A stretch of DNA of 40,843 bases from Kiritimatiellales bacterium (GCA_021734345.1 JAIPJC010000013.1:1-40843); one strand, 5' to 3'. Shown: positions 32,668-40,843, counted from the first letter of the stretch. The notes: generated from the sequence alone by a model not told the origin. Translations and numbers: made by a program.

Positions 32668-34747
32668 CCTCGCGCTGACGCAAAGCCGCGCCGCGCTCGA
32701 CCGCATCGAAAGCCTGCTCGACGGCGTCGCCTTCGAGCAAGTGAAGATCACCTCCGTCGGCGATACCGACCGCACCACCGACCTGCGCGAAAGCCCCGCC
32801 GACTTCTTCACCCGCGAACTCGACGCCGCCCTGCTTCGCGGCGACATCGACCTCGCCGTCCACAGCGCCAAGGACCTGCCCGAACCCATGCCCGCCGGCA
32901 TCGACTGGTACTGGCTCCCCTGGCGCGAAGAGCCGCGCGACGCTCTCATCCTGGCCAAAGGCCGGAAGATTTCCGACCTGCCTGGCAACCCCGTCATCGG
33001 CGTCAGCTCCGCCCGCCGCGAAGCCTACTGCACCAAGCGCTTCCCCTCCGCCATCCAGAAAAACATCCGCGGCAACATCGACGAGCGCATCGCGCAGGTC
33101 GACAACGGAACCTACGACATCGTCGTCATGGCCGGTGCTGCCCTCGTCCGTCTCGGCATCGAAGAGCGCATCACCGAATGGATCCCGCTCGACGAACTCG
33201 AAGTCCCCGAAGGCCAGGGCCATCTCGCCGTCACCTTCCGCGAAGGCGATGAAAGGATGACGGCGCTCCGCAACCTGTTCACGCCGGCCGTCGTCTTCGC
33301 CGGCGCGGGCGTGAGCAACAAGGAACTCTGCACCGTCGCCACCCTGCACGCCCTGCAACGCTGCGACATCTGCCTCCACGACTCGCTCATCGACCCCTCC
33401 CTGCTCGCCGAACTTCCACCGCACGCCAGCGCCATCGATGTCGGCAAACGCTGCGGTGCCCACAGCAAAGAGCAGCACGAAACCACCCGGCTCATCTGCG
33501 AATGCGCGCGGCAGAGCAAACGCATCGTGCGCCTCAAAGGCGGCGATCCCGGCATCTTCGGCCGCCTCGCCGAGGAAACCGAAGCGCTCGAACACCTCGG
33601 CATCCCCTTCCGCGTCATCCCCGGCATCAGCGCCCTCCAGGCCGCCACAACCGGCACCGGAATGCTGCTCACCCGTCGCGATATTTCGCGCGGCTTCGTC
33701 GCCCTCACCCCGCGCATGCACGGCGGCGGATTGGCCCGTTGCGACGCGGAAATGAAAAGCCAACTTCCGGTCATCTACTACATGTCGATCAAGGCGATCG
33801 AACCGATTGCCCGGCAGCTGCTCGACGACGGCGTTCCAGCCGATACCCCGGTCGCGCTGGTCTTCAACGCCGGCGGCGAAGACGAAAACATCATCAAGAC
33901 CACGCTCGGCGAACTGCCGAGCCAGTCGATGCCCCACTGTGTCAAGCAACCTGGCCTCATCATCGTCGGCAACATCACGGCCTACGCCTACAAGACCGAA
34001 CTCGGCGCCTTGCAAGGTCGGAAAATCCTGCTCACCTGCTCCGAGGCCATACAGGAAAAGGCCGCCGCGCTCGTCCGCGATTTTGGTGGCCGCCCGATCC
34101 AACTCCCCCTGATCCGTTTGAAATGTAGACGCGGCTTCCAGCCGCGTTGCGCAGAATACGACTGGCTGGTCGTCACCTCCCCCTCTTCCGTACGTGCATT
34201 CATGGAATTGATTCACGATCAAAAAATAGACTACCGCACCATCCCGAAGATCATGGTTTGCGGACGCGGCACCGCCGACGAGTTCGCGCAATACAACCTC
34301 CAAGTCGATGCCCAGCCCGAATCGGACTTCAGCGCCGAAGCGCTGATCGAACTCGCAAAGGCTACCTTGAAACCCGACGACAAAATTTTGCGCGTCCGTT
34401 CCGACAAAGCCGGCCCGCAACTCGCCGAAGCCCTGCGCTCCAACGGCGCGGACGTCGAAGACGCCATCCTCTACGACAACGAACGCATCGACCACGGCGA
34501 TCTGCCCGGTTTCGACGTCGTCTTCTTCGCCAGCGCATCCGCCGTCGACTCCCTCGTCGGCCAATGGGGCACCGCCGCACTCGCCGGAAAAACCATTTGC
34601 GTCATCGGCAAACCCACCGCCCAGGCGCTGGAAAAACACGGCCTCCGCCATGATATAATGGCTCGCGAAGCCACGGTGATGGGTGCTATCCATTCATGTG
34701 CAGAATATTTCGTAGGAGAAAAACTATGTACCCGGAAATCAGACTAA
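32621..34747 (+). CDS. Fusion: truncated porphobilinogen deaminase (HemC domains 1-2) + uroporphyrinogen-III C-methyltransferase (CobA) + uroporphyrinogen-III synthase (HemD)
   Basis: AGTRPSSLALTQSRAAL, LAVHSAKDLPEPMP, NIRGNIDERIAQVDNGTYD; VVFAGAGVSNKELCTVATLHALQRCDICLHDSLID, RLKGGDPGIFGR, PGISALQAA; C-terminal HemD-like KILLTCSEAIQEK...YDWLVVTSPSSVRAF. Confidence 0.88.
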   Translation: MKRSPTVFRAGTRPSSLALTQSRAALDRIESLLDGVAFEQVKITSVGDTDRTTDLRESPADFFTRELDAALLRGDIDLAVHSAKDLPEPMPAGIDWYWLPWREEPRDALILAKGRKISDLPGNPVIGVSSARREAYCTKRFPSAIQKNIRGNIDERIAQVDNGTYDIVVMAGAALVRLGIEERITEWIPLDELEVPEGQGHLAVTFREGDERMTALRNLFTPAVVFAGAGVSNKELCTVATLHALQRCDICLHDSLIDPSLLAELPPHASAIDVGKRCGAHSKEQHETTRLICECARQSKRIVRLKGGDPGIFGRLAEETEALEHLGIPFRVIPGISALQAATTGTGMLLTRRDISRGFVALTPRMHGGGLARCDAEMKSQLPVIYYMSIKAIEPIARQLLDDGVPADTPVALVFNAGGEDENIIKTTLGELPSQSMPHCVKQPGLIIVGNITAYAYKTELGALQGRKILLTCSEAIQEKAAALVRDFGGRPIQLPLIRLKCRRGFQPRCAEYDWLVVTSPSSVRAFMELIHDQKIDYRTIPKIMVCGRGTADEFAQYNLQVDAQPESDFSAEALIELAKATLKPDDKILRVRSDKAGPQLAEALRSNGADVEDAILYDNERIDHGDLPGFDVVFFASASAVDSLVGQWGTAALAGKTICVIGKPTAQALEKHGLRHDIMAREATVMGAIHSCAEYFVGEKLCTRKSD
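34125..34152 (+). repeat. 28-bp palindrome-containing repeat, copy 2 (inside the hemD segment)
   Basis: gtagacgcggcttccagccgcgttgcgc, identical to the reverse complement of 19736-19763. Confidence 0.85.
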
Positions 34748-35706
34748 GACGCCTGCGCCAGAGCGCAGGGATCCGCAGAATGCTGGACGCGCCGCTGCCC
34801 GGTCCGGAAAAATTCATATGGCCGGCGTTTGTCATCGACGGCGCGGCAAAGCGCGAGCCGATCGATGCGATGCCGGGGCAGTCGCGGTTGAGCGTCGACC
34901 AATTGCTGATCGATCTTGAACCCGTTGTCGAGTCCGGCGTAAACGGGGTCCTGCTGTTTGGTTTGGTCGAGGATTCCGAAAAGGATTACGCCGGCACGGC
35001 CGCCTACAACGACAAGGGTGCCGTGCAACGCGCCATCCGCGAGGTGAAATCCCGCTTCCCCGATTTAGTGGTCACGGCCGATGTCTGTGTCTGCGCCTAC
35101 ACGACTCACGGCCACTGCGGCCCGCTGACCGAATCCGGCGATGTGGATAACGATGCCGCCAACGAGGTGCTCGCCAAGATCGCCGTCTCCTACGCCGCCG
35201 CCGGTGCCGACATCGTTGCGCCGAGCGCGATGATGGACGGGCAGGTTGAAGCGATCCGCACCGCGCTCGACGCCAACGCCTTCAATCAAACGCTGCTCAT
35301 GAGCTATTCGACCAAGTTTGCATCGGCCATGTACGGCCCGTTCCGCGAGGCGGAAAAATCGCAACCCGGCAAGGGCGACCGCAAGGGCTACCAGGCGTCG
35401 TACGGCGATCTGCGCACCGCGCTGCGCGAGTCGGAACTCGACGAATTGGAAGGCGCGGACATGCTGATGGTCAAACCATCGCTTTTCTACCTCGACGTGC
35501 TGGCCAAGATGCGCGAAGCAACCGACCTGCCGATCGCGGCCTACAACGTCAGCGGCGAATATTCCATGCTGCACGCCACCGCCGAACGCGGCTGGGGCGA
35601 CCTAAAAGGCATGGTGCAGGAATCGTCCGCCGCGCTCGTCCGCGCCGGTGCCGACATCCTCATCTCCTACTGGGCCAACCAGTACGACAAGTACTTCCGC
35701 AATTAG
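34726..35706 (+). CDS. hemB: Delta-aminolevulinic acid dehydratase (porphobilinogen synthase)
   Basis: RRLRQSAGIRRML, VVTADVCVCAYTTHGHCG, DIVAPSAMMDG, MLMVKPSLFYLDVL, YNVSGEYSML; RBS taggag. Confidence 0.96.
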   Translation: MYPEIRLRRLRQSAGIRRMLDAPLPGPEKFIWPAFVIDGAAKREPIDAMPGQSRLSVDQLLIDLEPVVESGVNGVLLFGLVEDSEKDYAGTAAYNDKGAVQRAIREVKSRFPDLVVTADVCVCAYTTHGHCGPLTESGDVDNDAANEVLAKIAVSYAAAGADIVAPSAMMDGQVEAIRTALDANAFNQTLLMSYSTKFASAMYGPFREAEKSQPGKGDRKGYQASYGDLRTALRESELDELEGADMLMVKPSLFYLDVLAKMREATDLPIAAYNVSGEYSMLHATAERGWGDLKGMVQESSAALVRAGADILISYWANQYDKYFRN

Positions 35707-35713
35707 GCTGGAG

Positions 35714-35733
35714 GGACGCTGGCCTCAGCGTCC
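35714..35733. terminator. Hairpin between convergent hemB and galM
   Basis: Perfect 8-bp stem ggacgctg-gcct-cagcgtcc; no T run, so assignment is tentative. Confidence 0.4.
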
Positions 35734-35763
35734 GGTCATTGAGGACAATGCCCCTCCAAATCC

Positions 35764-36795
35764 CTATTGGGCTACGCCAAACGTGTAGATGCAGGTTTGG
35801 GTATAGGTTTCGCCGGAAGCGAGTTCCGTCGACGGGAAGTCCGGTTGATTCGGGCTGTCGGGATAGTGCTGGGTTTCGAGGCAGAAGCCTTCGCGCCAGT
35901 TATAGACCGCGCCGCCTTTGCCTTTGACGTTGTCAAGGAAGTTGCCGGCGTAGAGCTGCACGCCGGGCGCGGTGGTCCAGCATTCGAGCGTGCGGCCGCT
36001 GGCCGGATCTAGCACCTTGGCCGCGAGGGTGAGCTCGCCGGCCGCCGATTGGTTGATGCAGTAGTTGTGGTCGTAGCCTGCGCCCGCCCGGTCAATGTTC
36101 TTGCCGAGCGGCGTGGGCGACCGGAAATCCATTTCGGTTCCGGCGACGGCGCGCAACTCGCCGGTCGGGATGGCGGTGTCGTCGACCACGGTGTAGCGGT
36201 CGGCGTTGATCATCATCAGATGGTCGTAGTGCGTGCCGCCACCCGCGAGGTTGAAGTAGCTGTGGTTGGTCAGGTTGAGAATGGTTTTCCGATCAGTGCG
36301 GGCCGTGTATTCGATCCGCAGTTCGTTTGCATCGGTCAGGCTGAAAAGTACCACGACGGTCAACGTGCCGGGATAGCCTTCCTCGCCATCGGGACTGGTG
36401 AGCGACATCTTGACGGCATTCTCGCCCACGATTTCCGCGTCCCACAGCTTCTTGTCGAATCCGAGCAAGCCGCCGTGCAGCGCGTTTACGCCATTGTTGA
36501 TGGCGAGCTGGTATTCAACACCATCGACGCTGAACCGGCCCTTGGCGATGCGGTTGGCGTAGCGGCCGCAGGTAGCGCCAAAGTATGGATTGCCCGCGCT
36601 TTGATAGCCCGCCATGTCGTCGAAGCCCAGCACCACATCGGCGAAGTTGCCGGCGCGATCGGGTGCCTCCACCGAAACGATGGTGGCGCCGTGGTTGATG
36701 ATCTTCACCTTTACGCCGTTGCCGTTCGCGAGGATGAAGACGTCGACGTTCTGGCCGGCGCTGGTTTTCCCGAAAGGTTGCTTTTCAATTCCCAT
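35764..36795 (-). CDS. galM: Aldose 1-epimerase
   Basis: KVKIINHGATIVSVEAPDRAG, YFGATCGRYANRIAKGRF, NNGVNALHGG, LTNHSYFNLAG; ATG 36795. Confidence 0.95.
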   Translation of the reverse strand: MGIEKQPFGKTSAGQNVDVFILANGNGVKVKIINHGATIVSVEAPDRAGNFADVVLGFDDMAGYQSAGNPYFGATCGRYANRIAKGRFSVDGVEYQLAINNGVNALHGGLLGFDKKLWDAEIVGENAVKMSLTSPDGEEGYPGTLTVVVLFSLTDANELRIEYTARTDRKTILNLTNHSYFNLAGGGTHYDHLMMINADRYTVVDDTAIPTGELRAVAGTEMDFRSPTPLGKNIDRAGAGYDHNYCINQSAAGELTLAAKVLDPASGRTLECWTTAPGVQLYAGNFLDNVKGKGGAVYNWREGFCLETQHYPDSPNQPDFPSTELASGETYTQTCIYTFGVAQ

Positions 36796-36928
36796 TTTCA
36801 ATCTCCTTGATGCTGTCTCGAACCGAGGCGGATGACTCCAAGGATTGGAACACAGCCCACGCCGGTTTTCATTGGTTTGTTTTTCTAAAACAGGGAACTG
36901 CATCCCCGTGCCTCTCATCTTTGTTCGG

Positions 36929-36954
36929 AATGATGAAAAAAGCCTCCTGACGCC
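36929..36954 (+). repeat. Left copy of inverted repeat flanking the accessory segment
   Basis: aatgatgaaaaaagcctcctgacgcc. Confidence 0.7.
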
Positions 36955-36963
36955 GTGCACACC

Positions 36964-37866
36964 TCAATTTAGGCTACTCGCAAATCCAGATTCCTTTAGT
37001 TTCGACTTAAAGTAGTCATCAAGGTCGAGTCTTTGGATGTACTCAGGAATATTCAGCGTATAAATATCGCCTCGGGCCTTGGCGCTCTCGCCTTCGTACA
37101 GTCCAAAATCTTCGAGATGAAACTCTCGTTGGTACGGAGGAGAAATGAACACACGAGGAAATTTTGCGAGGCTCCAGTAGTCTTTCAGCTCCTGTGTCGT
37201 GACCGTCATAATCGGAATCGACAAATCAACATGCCTGAAGAGCAACCTGCCCATCACCAATAGGCTTTCCAGATAATCCCGCCACAAAGGCCACTCTTCC
37301 CCACACACTAAGTAACGATACAAGTACGTTTCCGAGTTCAGTTGCTTTATCATCCCCCGCATGAGAAATCCAATGCGACCATTGGTGCTTTGCCGGTCTT
37401 TTGTCAGATCGTGGTCTTCAGAGTCGATGAATACAAACGCTTCCAGAAATTCACTGTCGCGCATTAACTCGACAACATCATCTATTATCCTATTCGGATG
37501 CCTAGTGTAGCTTTTGTAGGGATATATTTGATTCGAGCTTCCATCCAACCACTCGCGTTGAACTCCAAAATATCGCGCCGTCCAGTCCAACACTTTCGGA
37601 GTAAGAACACTCAGGATCTTTTCATCGGATGTAAGCTTATCCAGCGTGATCCCAAATTCAGAAGGAAAGATGTCAGCTGCGTGCTGTAATTTCAGTTCAT
37701 GTCCTACAAACAGATCCCGAAATCGACGAGCAACTATGGTAACATGATTCTCCGAGGAGACTATGTCATCAGAAACAGGAACGCCTTTAAGGCGGCGAAA
37801 AAGCTCATGTAGATTGACTGAGAAGCCCCATAGCCCTGGCTTTGCTTCAAATATTTTATCCACCAT
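36964..37866 (-). CDS. Hypothetical 300-aa protein with a possible N-terminal helical/HTH-like region
   Basis: Intact ORF in AT-richer DNA; LTPKVLDWTARYFGVQREWLDG segment; no confident family. Confidence 0.8.
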   Translation of the reverse strand: MVDKIFEAKPGLWGFSVNLHELFRRLKGVPVSDDIVSSENHVTIVARRFRDLFVGHELKLQHAADIFPSEFGITLDKLTSDEKILSVLTPKVLDWTARYFGVQREWLDGSSNQIYPYKSYTRHPNRIIDDVVELMRDSEFLEAFVFIDSEDHDLTKDRQSTNGRIGFLMRGMIKQLNSETYLYRYLVCGEEWPLWRDYLESLLVMGRLLFRHVDLSIPIMTVTTQELKDYWSLAKFPRVFISPPYQREFHLEDFGLYEGESAKARGDIYTLNIPEYIQRLDLDDYFKSKLKESGFASSLN

Positions 37867-37917
37867 TATTTCTCCAGAGTCTTAGATTATGCCTGATTCT
37901 CCCAATTATTAATGCGT

Positions 37918-38031
37918 CTAGAGGATGGCGTTGATCCGCTGGCGGTCCACGCCAAGTTCCTTGGCAATCTGCGCCGCTTTAAGACCATTCCCCCAGCCCA
38001 GCATCTCCAGAATCTGTGGTGCTAAATCCAT
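37918..38031 (-). CDS. 37-aa HTH-only mini-ORF (MDLAPQILEMLGWGNGLKAAQIAKELGVDRQRINAIL)
   Basis: ATG at 38031 directly after the AAA ATPase stop, TAG at 37918; AAQIAKELGVDRQRINAIL resembles an HTH helix pair; absent from the supplied ORF track because it is too short. Confidence 0.5.
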   Translation of the reverse strand: MDLAPQILEMLGWGNGLKAAQIAKELGVDRQRINAIL

Positions 38032-38033
38032 CC

Positions 38034-40100
38034 CTATTCCGGCCTATTGCCGTTTTCTTTGTATGGGGTTCCTAAATAATTCGAGGAGTTGTGTTTTTCG
38101 ATGAAGCCGTAGACCGCTTCAGTTATGCACTTTAGTTCTGGAGATGTGCTCAGCAGAGTCCATTCATATTCTTTATCCAAAACGAGCTGAGACAGTTCAT
38201 TTTTATGCCCGGTAGTCAGTGTTCTATCCCCGTACTCCAGCGGTTGTTCGCCACTATTTTCTTTCAGAAATTTCCCCATCGGCTCTTGGGAATAATCGTC
38301 CAGCTTGGCTGTAAAGCTGACGTTCTGTTGTGATTGATGGCTCTGAATGAAATCCTGAATGATCTCAGGTGGAAGCAGGTTTTCGATTTCCAGTACTATG
38401 GTTGTCTTGTATTCAAAGTTTTCAGAATTCAGCTTTTCTAGCTCTTTATGCCGCCCCTGTTTTTCTTGGCTCATATCCTGATCTGCTAAGAGAAAGATTC
38501 GATTGGCATTGCGGAATGAATCGATGAATTTTTTATCCACAGTTTCAGGATCAAAAAGATAGTGCCGAATATTTGATCCTGCATATTCAAAGAATGTGTA
38601 ATCCAAACCTTCCTTGAATTCACGCTTCCCGGTGGCTTTACAGTATGAGCTGAGGAATGCCTGTACATATCGCCGATCCGAAACGCCCTCCACCCAGATG
38701 GAGCAGTTGGCCATATAGACCGAGGCATTCACAACGCCAAGCTGGTCAAGCACGGTTGTATCAGCCCCATGGACACAACGGATGATGGACTTGTCTTTAT
38801 TGATCGGGCTGAAGTTGAAAACAGAAATATTGTTGGGTTCGCGCAATGCATGACTCAGAAAATGGTTCGAGTGCGTCGTCAGGAAATAACGCAGGCTCTT
38901 CGCTTTTAAGTCCTTGTTATTCAGGATGGTGTCAATAAAGAGGTTCTGAAATCCCGGATGCAGACTCAGCTCTGGTTCGTCGATGAATATCCACGTATTT
39001 GCATCCGCCATGAATATTGGGTAGAGAAGAATCAACAGGTGTTGAATCCCATCACCTAAATCCTGAATTTTTCTTTCCGACTCGCTTGCTATATAAAAGC
39101 GAATTTCTTTTGTCTTCGTGTTGGGTTCGGCAACAACTTCGACCCGTCTTTCGTTGAAAAAACTAGTACTGATGAATCCTTGGAACTGCTGAAACCGTTC
39201 GCGTTTCTCAAACGTACTGTTCCGATCCATAAGAATAGTATGATGAAGTCGATCTCCCGCAGATATTTTGAACTTCCTATTTTGTTTTAACCCGCCGTTT
39301 GAGGAAAAGTAATAATGTACAGTGGTGTCTTCGTATATTGCATTAGGCAACATTGTGCCTTGCTGTCCTGAATCGCAGAGGGGTAATGAGCCTCTAAGTG
39401 AAGGTATGAAGATCTTATCTTGCCCGATCTCTTGTTTTTCTGTGGACTCAATCAGTTGTGCGAACTTCTGATAAATATGCATGAACTCATGTTGTAGCTT
39501 GGAGATGAGATCAAAGGCAATGGGGTTATTGTCCCCTCCGATTCTCATTGTTTGGTGTTGGTTCTGATAAAGTAGCTCGAAAAAGTCTGCAATCTTACGG
39601 TATGCGCCATAGTCGATGCTGATTCCGTCTGCTTTTTCCATAGACAGCTTTATAAAGCTGCCTCTTAGTCGTGATAATTCCTCACTATCTAGGACCATAC
39701 GTCCACTTCGGTCCTCGAGGGTGTGATTGAACAACGCGATTCTGTCTTCTTTTGTGGTGTTTTCTTTGAAGTTTTTGAAAGAAGGAAGCCATTGTGAAGA
39801 AATAATGCTGTTAGCATCGAACCTCTGTACGTTGAAAAGCTCATCATTACCAACTTTGCTGATCAGCTGGTCGAACATCTTAATCCCCGCTTGAAGCGCA
39901 TCTTTAAGGGTCTCATCCACAGTTGGTATATGGTCTAACATAACAAGCATTCGCATAAAGCGGCTTTTGCGTGAGTTATTGGCCCCCACTAGAATGTTGA
40001 CAGTTGAAATCGGACCAACAAACAGATGTTCATTGCTACCATCAACGAACTCAAAATCACCTTGTGAGGTTCTGTCTACAAAACTGATATATTCCTTCAT
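38034..40100 (-). CDS. AAA/ABC-type ATPase with OLD-like C-terminal TOPRIM domain
   Basis: Walker A-like LVGANNSRKSRFMR, IQDLGDGIQHLLILL, Walker B TWIFIDEPELSLHP, FLTTHSNHF; TOPRIM-like IWVEGVSDRRYVQAFL...IFLLADQD...VLEIENLL. Confidence 0.85.
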   Translation of the reverse strand: MKEYISFVDRTSQGDFEFVDGSNEHLFVGPISTVNILVGANNSRKSRFMRMLVMLDHIPTVDETLKDALQAGIKMFDQLISKVGNDELFNVQRFDANSIISSQWLPSFKNFKENTTKEDRIALFNHTLEDRSGRMVLDSEELSRLRGSFIKLSMEKADGISIDYGAYRKIADFFELLYQNQHQTMRIGGDNNPIAFDLISKLQHEFMHIYQKFAQLIESTEKQEIGQDKIFIPSLRGSLPLCDSGQQGTMLPNAIYEDTTVHYYFSSNGGLKQNRKFKISAGDRLHHTILMDRNSTFEKRERFQQFQGFISTSFFNERRVEVVAEPNTKTKEIRFYIASESERKIQDLGDGIQHLLILLYPIFMADANTWIFIDEPELSLHPGFQNLFIDTILNNKDLKAKSLRYFLTTHSNHFLSHALREPNNISVFNFSPINKDKSIIRCVHGADTTVLDQLGVVNASVYMANCSIWVEGVSDRRYVQAFLSSYCKATGKREFKEGLDYTFFEYAGSNIRHYLFDPETVDKKFIDSFRNANRIFLLADQDMSQEKQGRHKELEKLNSENFEYKTTIVLEIENLLPPEIIQDFIQSHQSQQNVSFTAKLDDYSQEPMGKFLKENSGEQPLEYGDRTLTTGHKNELSQLVLDKEYEWTLLSTSPELKCITEAVYGFIEKHNSSNYLGTPYKENGNRPE

Positions 40101-40368
40101 GGGTCTCTCTTGGTTCAGCTTTGATATGCGGTGGCGATTGCCGGCGTTTCACAAATGATGTCTTTGTGCGCTCGGCATAGGCTTTCACGGCTTCTTGGAA
40201 ATTGAGCCAATCCGAGGTTTCGTACCCCGGCTTGAAGTTGAATGTTTCGACGGTTCGTTGTCTTCCATTGGTCGGATTTCCTGTCCGTCTTGTGGTTTTC
40301 TTTACGGCGACTTTAAACCATTCAAGGGGTCAGAACGCTTTTTTCATCATTTGCATATTTGTATCCAT
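40057..40368 (-). pseudogene. Disrupted ORF upstream of the ATPase (in-frame TGA at 40330-40332)
   Basis: MDTNMQMMKKAF*PLEWFKVAVKKTTRRTGNPTNGRQRTVETFNFKPGYETSDWLNFQEAVKAYAERTKTSFVKRRQ... Confidence 0.4.
40326..40351 (-). repeat. Right copy of inverted repeat flanking the accessory segment
   Basis: Reverse complement reads aatgatgaaaaaagcgttctgacccc; 15 nt identical and 22/26 overall versus 36929-36954. Confidence 0.7.
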
Positions 40369-40571
40369 TTCGTTTTCTCTCGTCAAACAACATGCCCTTT
40401 ATTTCAAGTTATCTGCTGAATTTCACCTCACCCAGCCCTCAACCGCTGTTCCCGCCAAAGCAGCGCGTCGCGTTTGGGGGCGGATTGTTTTTGCTCGGGC
40501 GGGAGGATGGTTTTGCCGTTGAGGTTGATCAGGTCGCGGTGGGCGTCGATTGCTCTTAGTTCTTCCATTAT

Positions 40572-40843
40572 CATTTCCCGCCTCCGATCAGGTTGGTCAG
40601 CATGGCGGTGATGACGTCTTTTTCCTGCGGGCGGCTTTCGGCGATCATGAGCGTCATGGCGACGAGGGCGTTGTCGGCAATGCGTTTGTTCCCTTCCTTG
40701 TCGTACAGCAGTTTATTCTTATCGGCGAAGCGCAGGAACACGGCGGCTGCGATGCGCTTGTTGCCGTCAACGAAGCTGTGGTTCTTGACGAGGAAGTAGA
40801 GGAGGTGGGCGGACTTTTCCTCGACGGAGGGATAGACGTCCTT
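40572..40843 (-). pseudogene. Fic/DOC-like protein C-terminal part, apparently frameshifted near 40617-40622 (5' end outside window)
   Basis: Minus frame open from 40843: KDVYPSVEEKSAHLLYFLVKNHSFVDGNKRIAAAVFLRFADKNKLLYDKEGNKRIADNALVAMTLMIAESRPQE; in-frame stop at 40598-40600, while the adjacent frame reads KDVITAMLTNLIGGGK* to 40572. Confidence 0.65.

Follow-up and report, generated by a model that had tools for sequence, protein, structure and literature searches.

A probable acquired defence island between rng and galM with an OLD-type ATPase gene and a candidate DNA-binding accessory gene

The window, a stretch of 40,843 nucleotides that constitutes contig C11 of a Kiritimatiellales bacterium genome, probably carries part of an acquired defence island of ~5.3 kb, situated between rng and galM. 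In this reading, the AT-rich part of the island contains a stand-alone-type OLD effector and a DNA-binding accessory, and the inverted repeats around it are solo copies of a dispersed repeat that did not move it. The sequence support comes from an intact TOPRIM motif, the insertion site, the base composition, and relatives that lie beside defence genes. The OLD gene adds a further member to a well-studied nuclease family. The new item of the locus is the family of the 300-aa accessory protein, which is the more useful lead, as its sampled members are situated downstream of many unrelated defence operons. The features of the region are as follows.

35764 to 36795, minus strand: galM, the left border of the insertion
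36929 to 36957, plus strand: left repeat arm, best read as a degenerate solo copy of a genus-wide Y1/RAYT-associated repeat
36964 to 37866, minus strand: 300-aa protein of an unnamed family, with a predicted cI/XRE-like helical core and a C-terminal alpha/beta domain
near 37917 to 38031, minus strand: HTH mini-ORF of 37 codons, MDLAPQILEMLGWGNGLKAAQIAKELGVDRQRINAIL, probably a gene fragment
38034 to 40100, minus strand: OLD-type ATPase of 688 aa (Pfam AAA_15/AAA_21) with a C-terminal TOPRIM domain
40323 to 40351, minus strand: right repeat arm, AATGATGAAAAAAGCGTTCTGACCCCTTG, best read as a solo copy of the Y1/RAYT-associated repeat
40571 to 40843, minus strand: 3' part of a RhuM-Fic gene (PADLOC PDC-S23), with the remainder on contig C121 (L034 from 9525)

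Insertion site and base composition

Among relatives that retain the order rng-galM-hemB, the two closest have rng as the next gene upstream of galM, with a gap of 11 bp (G213) and 101 bp (G215). In the genome of the window, rng lies on contig C121 and is followed by the RhuM-Fic gene; the ends of C121 and C11 overlap within this gene by 67 bp, with two mismatches (window 40843 / L034 10290). Across the two contigs, whose join we infer, the distance between rng and galM is ~5.3 kb with the RhuM-Fic gene included. The original prediction had placed a repeat-bounded cassette downstream of galM, with an empty site to be expected in relatives. The short rng-galM gaps do provide such a site, but it lies upstream (5') of galM, and the insertion extends beyond the repeat-bounded segment. 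The flank that had been called Fic-like is indeed Fic, namely the C-terminal part of a RhuM-Fic protein whose gene is cut by the contig end. No target-site duplication is visible in the comparison with relatives, which are just ~74–79% identical in the region.

In C121, one of the two mismatches in the contig overlap creates a stop codon, and the two-base difference reflects either strain variation or an assembly error. A further ORF on C121 (L034 8993-9478) is located between rng and the RhuM-Fic gene and has no Pfam match; its end resembles what we take to be a four-helix-bundle suffix region.

The AT-richer character of the block, noticed at first sight, is borne out by the numbers: the segment has a GC content of 44.5% compared with 58.2% in window positions 1-36928, and the GC3 of its two main ORFs is 0.48–0.49, compared with 0.80 in galM, 0.79 in hemB, 0.82 in the Fic part, and 0.85 in rng. 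The compositional change therefore affects just the OLD and 300-aa genes together with their spacers. Since its GC3 is native-like, the RhuM-Fic gene seems to lie outside the AT-rich segment. Judged by composition, 36929-40351 is AT-rich DNA of foreign character with two apparently intact genes.

Gene content of the AT-rich block

The predicted product of 38034-40100 is a probable phage-defence nuclease; it appears to be an ATPase of the OLD type whose TOPRIM motif is intact. It contains the P-loop GANNSRKS, the catalytic Glu E374, the ABC signature LGDGIQ, and a TTHS switch, and the TOPRIM residues E470, D539, D541, and E572 do not vary among the 11 aligned proteins. A profile built from 11 relatives matched PtuA (8ee4, 5.5e-17), the Retron-Eco8 OLD nuclease (23or, 8.8e-15), the T. 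scotoductus OLD (6p74, 8.8e-14), and AriA (1.1e-13) in the PDB. These matches to solved OLD proteins and the invariant TOPRIM residues uphold the OLD/TOPRIM-like identity first proposed for the protein. In the P-loop, an arginine (R43) is found in the window ATPase alone among the 11 aligned proteins, at a column that is otherwise nearly invariant Gly, and K44 and S45 are present. R43 may impair ATP binding.

Three same-strand ORFs had been described in the block. Two of them, of 688 and 300 aa, are full length and all three lie on the minus strand, but the HTH ORF is a 37-codon stub. The sequence that matches it best within the genus (78%, in G217) likewise comes from an interval that contains no intact gene, and the HTH ORF is probably a gene fragment. 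Upstream of the OLD gene, a 71-codon open stretch on the minus strand (~40112-40324) has no start after the stop, and no relatives of it were found in Pfam or in plasmid records.

The island may be decaying, because the HTH mini-ORF looks like debris. Decay could have gone so far that the P-loop of the OLD protein is broken, the HTH ORF and 40101-40325 are remnants, and nothing is functional; the unusual R43, the HTH stub, and the 71-codon stretch without a relative in plasmid records would fit such a state. However, both main ORFs are full length and free of stops, the catalytic Glu and the TOPRIM residues are intact, and a single residue change in the P-loop is no proof of lost function, and we consider complete loss of function unlikely.

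In the acquired-island reading that we prefer, the OLD protein would be the effector of the island: its ABC-type ATPase domain would sense or gate, and its TOPRIM domain would cut DNA upon phage infection. The 300-aa gene lies 167 bp downstream of the OLD gene on the same strand. The accessory protein, joined to whichever defence gene lies upstream of it, would bind DNA and thereby regulate or direct that gene or its product. This mechanism of an OLD effector with a DNA-binding accessory is suggested by the protein families and their neighbours.

The repeat arms

The two arms, 36929-36957 and 40323-40351, match in inverted orientation at 25 of 29 positions (86%), and thus the inverted ~26-bp repeats with 15 identical bases that drew attention to the segment are real and somewhat longer than first described. 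Their exact 15-base core, AATGATGAAAAAAGC, is located at 36929-36943 on the plus strand and 40337-40351 on the minus strand, and a search of the 3.25-Mb genome (84.8% complete) for the core with up to one mismatch retrieves it nowhere else. Among 300 dinucleotide shuffles each, an exact inverted match of 15 bp arose twice for the 3.5-kb segment and seven times for the last 7 kb of the window; hence, such a match is unusual by chance, but not impossible. As had been noted, there is no transposase between the arms (36929-40351).

A 23-base pattern of the repeat is present in 14 of the 29 genomes of the family, with at most eight copies per genome, compared with a single occurrence of the reversed control pattern across all 29. 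The repeat is 26–27 bp long, is dispersed genus-wide, and ends Y1/RAYT transposase genes. At two loci (L073 and L074), a Y1_Tnp (RAYT-like) gene lies between repeat copies, and its last codons fall inside the right copy; the left copy is inverted, so that the copies point outward. REPIN-like tight inverted pairs are present at L101 and L114, and many other copies in the relatives are solo. The genus thus shows the arrangement of RAYT/REPIN systems, with copies of the repeat at the borders of Y1_Tnp genes, in tight inverted pairs, and alone. In contrast, the two copies in the window stand singly, point inward, and have no transposase between them, and they are best read as solo copies of this RAYT-associated repeat family.

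We rejected the arms as terminal inverted repeats, because the repeat is scattered in the relatives and points outward in the Y1/RAYT elements, but inward here. Scattered copies had been named from the start as an observation that would detach the repeats from the segment; they are found in the relatives, although the genome of the window has just two, and the idea that the repeats terminate a mobile cassette is therefore unsupported. The segment could still be a transposon-like cassette with 26–29-bp terminal inverted repeats that was moved in trans, for example by the Y1/RAYT enzymes of the genus. Such a cassette would account for a repeat that occurs just twice in the genome, exactly around the foreign block, as independent copies so close together would be rare, and two RAYT genes of the same family are present in the genome. 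However, the copies face outward from the moved DNA in the RAYT elements and REPIN-like pairs of the relatives and inward here, there is no visible target duplication, the arms have 4 mismatches in 29 positions, and solo copies are common in the relatives, all of which makes movement in trans quite improbable. In the preferred reading, the foreign segment would have landed at or between the RAYT-associated repeats rather than being moved by them, with the restriction of the two copies to the borders of the foreign block as a loose end. A dispersed RAYT repeat can thus be mistaken for transposon ends.

A perfect tandem duplication of 7–14 bp, made of the repeat end and the adjoining DNA, was observed at the repeat tip in 12 of 38 copies, compared with 47 of 4000 random 60-mers; the repeat reads AATGAYGARAAAAGCGTTCTGACCC(C)TTT. 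These duplications, present at L073, L074, L075, L077, L081, L100, L106, L112, and others, may be a trace of the insertion mode of the repeat. The two Y1/RAYT transposase genes in the genome of the window (G000 C168:5188-6123 and C77:3211-4209; L087 and L088) are 53–58% identical to the repeat-carrying Y1/RAYT transposase gene. The flanks of L088 are GGGGTCAGTCC and GGACTGACCCC, with only the CTGACCCC tip in common.

The accessory family and the known OLD systems

The 300-aa protein has no match in Pfam, NCBIfam, or PADLOC, and none of 10 family members has a Pfam match. Its relatives share 18–27% identity. The core, approximately residues 41–110, contains the motif FGVxREWLDG, located where XRE domains end, and the C-terminal part contains a PEDYxLxxxES-type motif. 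The AlphaFold2 model (10 sequences) has a mean pLDDT of 77.8, with 88–94 over residues 41–120, and its helical core (41–110) is confident. Foldseek aligned ~80 residues of the model with phage XRE/CI domains (best TM (target) 0.68 over 79 columns, at a weak E of 0.3), and there was no PDB match at E ≤ 0.001. Apart from one weak CI match, a PDB sequence search with the protein alone returned noise, and a profile search returned no match. A DNA-binding, cI/XRE-like head is therefore a prediction from the model. Weak Foldseek matches also include RNase H domains; we do not claim an RNase H-like C-terminal domain (beta-beta-beta-alpha-beta), as no acidic triad is conserved in the family alignment.

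Similar to phage CI/XRE repressors, the protein has a predicted helical core with the WL-x-G end of XRE domains; in contrast to them, its C-terminal domain has no Pfam or PDB match, and its relatives add varied N-terminal modules. These modules are an AlbA_2 domain (L030), an RHH-like domain in enterobacterial plasmids (Pfam RelB/NikA below cut-off), and hydrophobic helices recognised by reading in L056, L059, and L061. The accessory relatives were found in the following contexts, at all of which they lie on the same strand as the preceding gene.

L056: downstream of type I R-M subunits, with GmrSD nearby
L061: downstream of type I R-M subunits, with a SIR2 gene nearby
L057: after a DUF5655 gene, with type I R-M
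L050/L060: downstream of HsdM-Mrr
L030: AlbA_2-fused, beside type I R-M plus an ATPase
L054: after a complete Gabija (GajA 2e-216, GajB 5e-203)
L059: downstream of a PtuA-like ATPase
L052: downstream of PtuA plus HNH
L051/L055: downstream of an AAA_16 NTPase, with a GIY-YIG-like gene
L062: with a RhuM neighbour
L058: with unidentified neighbour genes

The sample is small and was partly drawn by an HTH-motif pattern, which biases it, and we claim no rate from it. No relatives were present in annotated phage records, and neither the OLD ATPase nor the 300-aa protein has a confirmed relative in viral contigs. A literature search of partial coverage retrieved no published description of the family, and we know of no experiment on any of its members. 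Tentatively, the protein could belong to a modular accessory family, so far undescribed, whose members join unrelated defence operons (Gabija, Septu-like, type I R-M, and stand-alone OLD), carry exchangeable N-terminal modules (AlbA_2, RHH-like, hydrophobic helix, or none), and act as a shared regulator or sensor for these operons. If so, a gene left unannotated in many defence islands would be accounted for, and several systems could be approached through a single handle.

The OLD ATPase, the HTH protein, and the 300-aa protein had been proposed as a multi-gene system. A conserved three-gene system would be consistent with the same strand and order of the three in the window, and the 300-aa family does adjoin other OLD-type or related ATPases (GajA at L054; PtuA-like ATPases at L059 and L052). 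However, no sampled locus elsewhere pairs the two proteins: the 300-aa protein is beside none of the ATPase relatives examined, including four plasmid loci, the 300-aa relatives have no ATPase of the window type beside them, and the HTH ORF is fragmentary. Such a system is very improbable and is largely refuted by the sampled loci. What appears to stand of the mobilised or inserted defence-type cassette is the foreign insertion of defence type, with its empty site and OLD gene; the repeat-bounded mobile cassette and the three-gene system do not.

By genomic context, class 2 OLD genes are found with a helicase and class 3 with a reverse transcriptase, and the reviewed class 1 genes are single and distant from other candidate defence genes (PMC10568477). 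In the case of the window ATPase, neither a UvrD-like helicase (GajB) nor a reverse transcriptase was found in 34000-40843 or in the part of C121 that was read; it would therefore be neither class 2 nor class 3, and appears closest to class 1. Gabija GajA (class 2) has the same ATPase-TOPRIM layout, and at L054 the full GajA-GajB pair is followed by a 300-aa relative, but the window has no UvrD-like GajB and its ATPase matches the PADLOC GajA models weakly (4e-9). The best PADLOC models are ATPase-Toprim_I-B (retron I-B, 2.4e-18) and AriA, and the best NCBIfam match is retron_eff_Eco8 (3.3e-14, 52 bits), which, with the strong profile match to the solved structure, likens the protein to the class 3 effector of Retron-Eco8. 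A type I-B retron that has lost its reverse transcriptase is nevertheless hardly credible, and we rejected it, as the Eco8 match is far below the 250-bit cut-off, no reverse transcriptase or ncRNA was found (no Rfam match in 36700-40843 at E up to 1), and the nearest ATPase relatives have no adjacent reverse transcriptase.

These nearest relatives, L094 (613 aa) and L095 (697 aa), are 27–28% identical to the window ATPase, have the P-loop GxNNSGKS, and are single genes among housekeeping genes, with no helicase, reverse transcriptase, or 300-aa protein next to them. The class 1 proteins (for example, T. scotoductus OLD, 6P74, and P2 Old) share with the window ATPase the ABC ATPase followed by TOPRIM and the E / DxD motif, and its nearest relatives likewise stand alone. 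Compared with class 1, the window ATPase is longer (688 vs. 528 aa), has an Arg in the P-loop, and lies inside a defence island with a downstream accessory gene, a same-strand neighbour that its stand-alone relatives lack.
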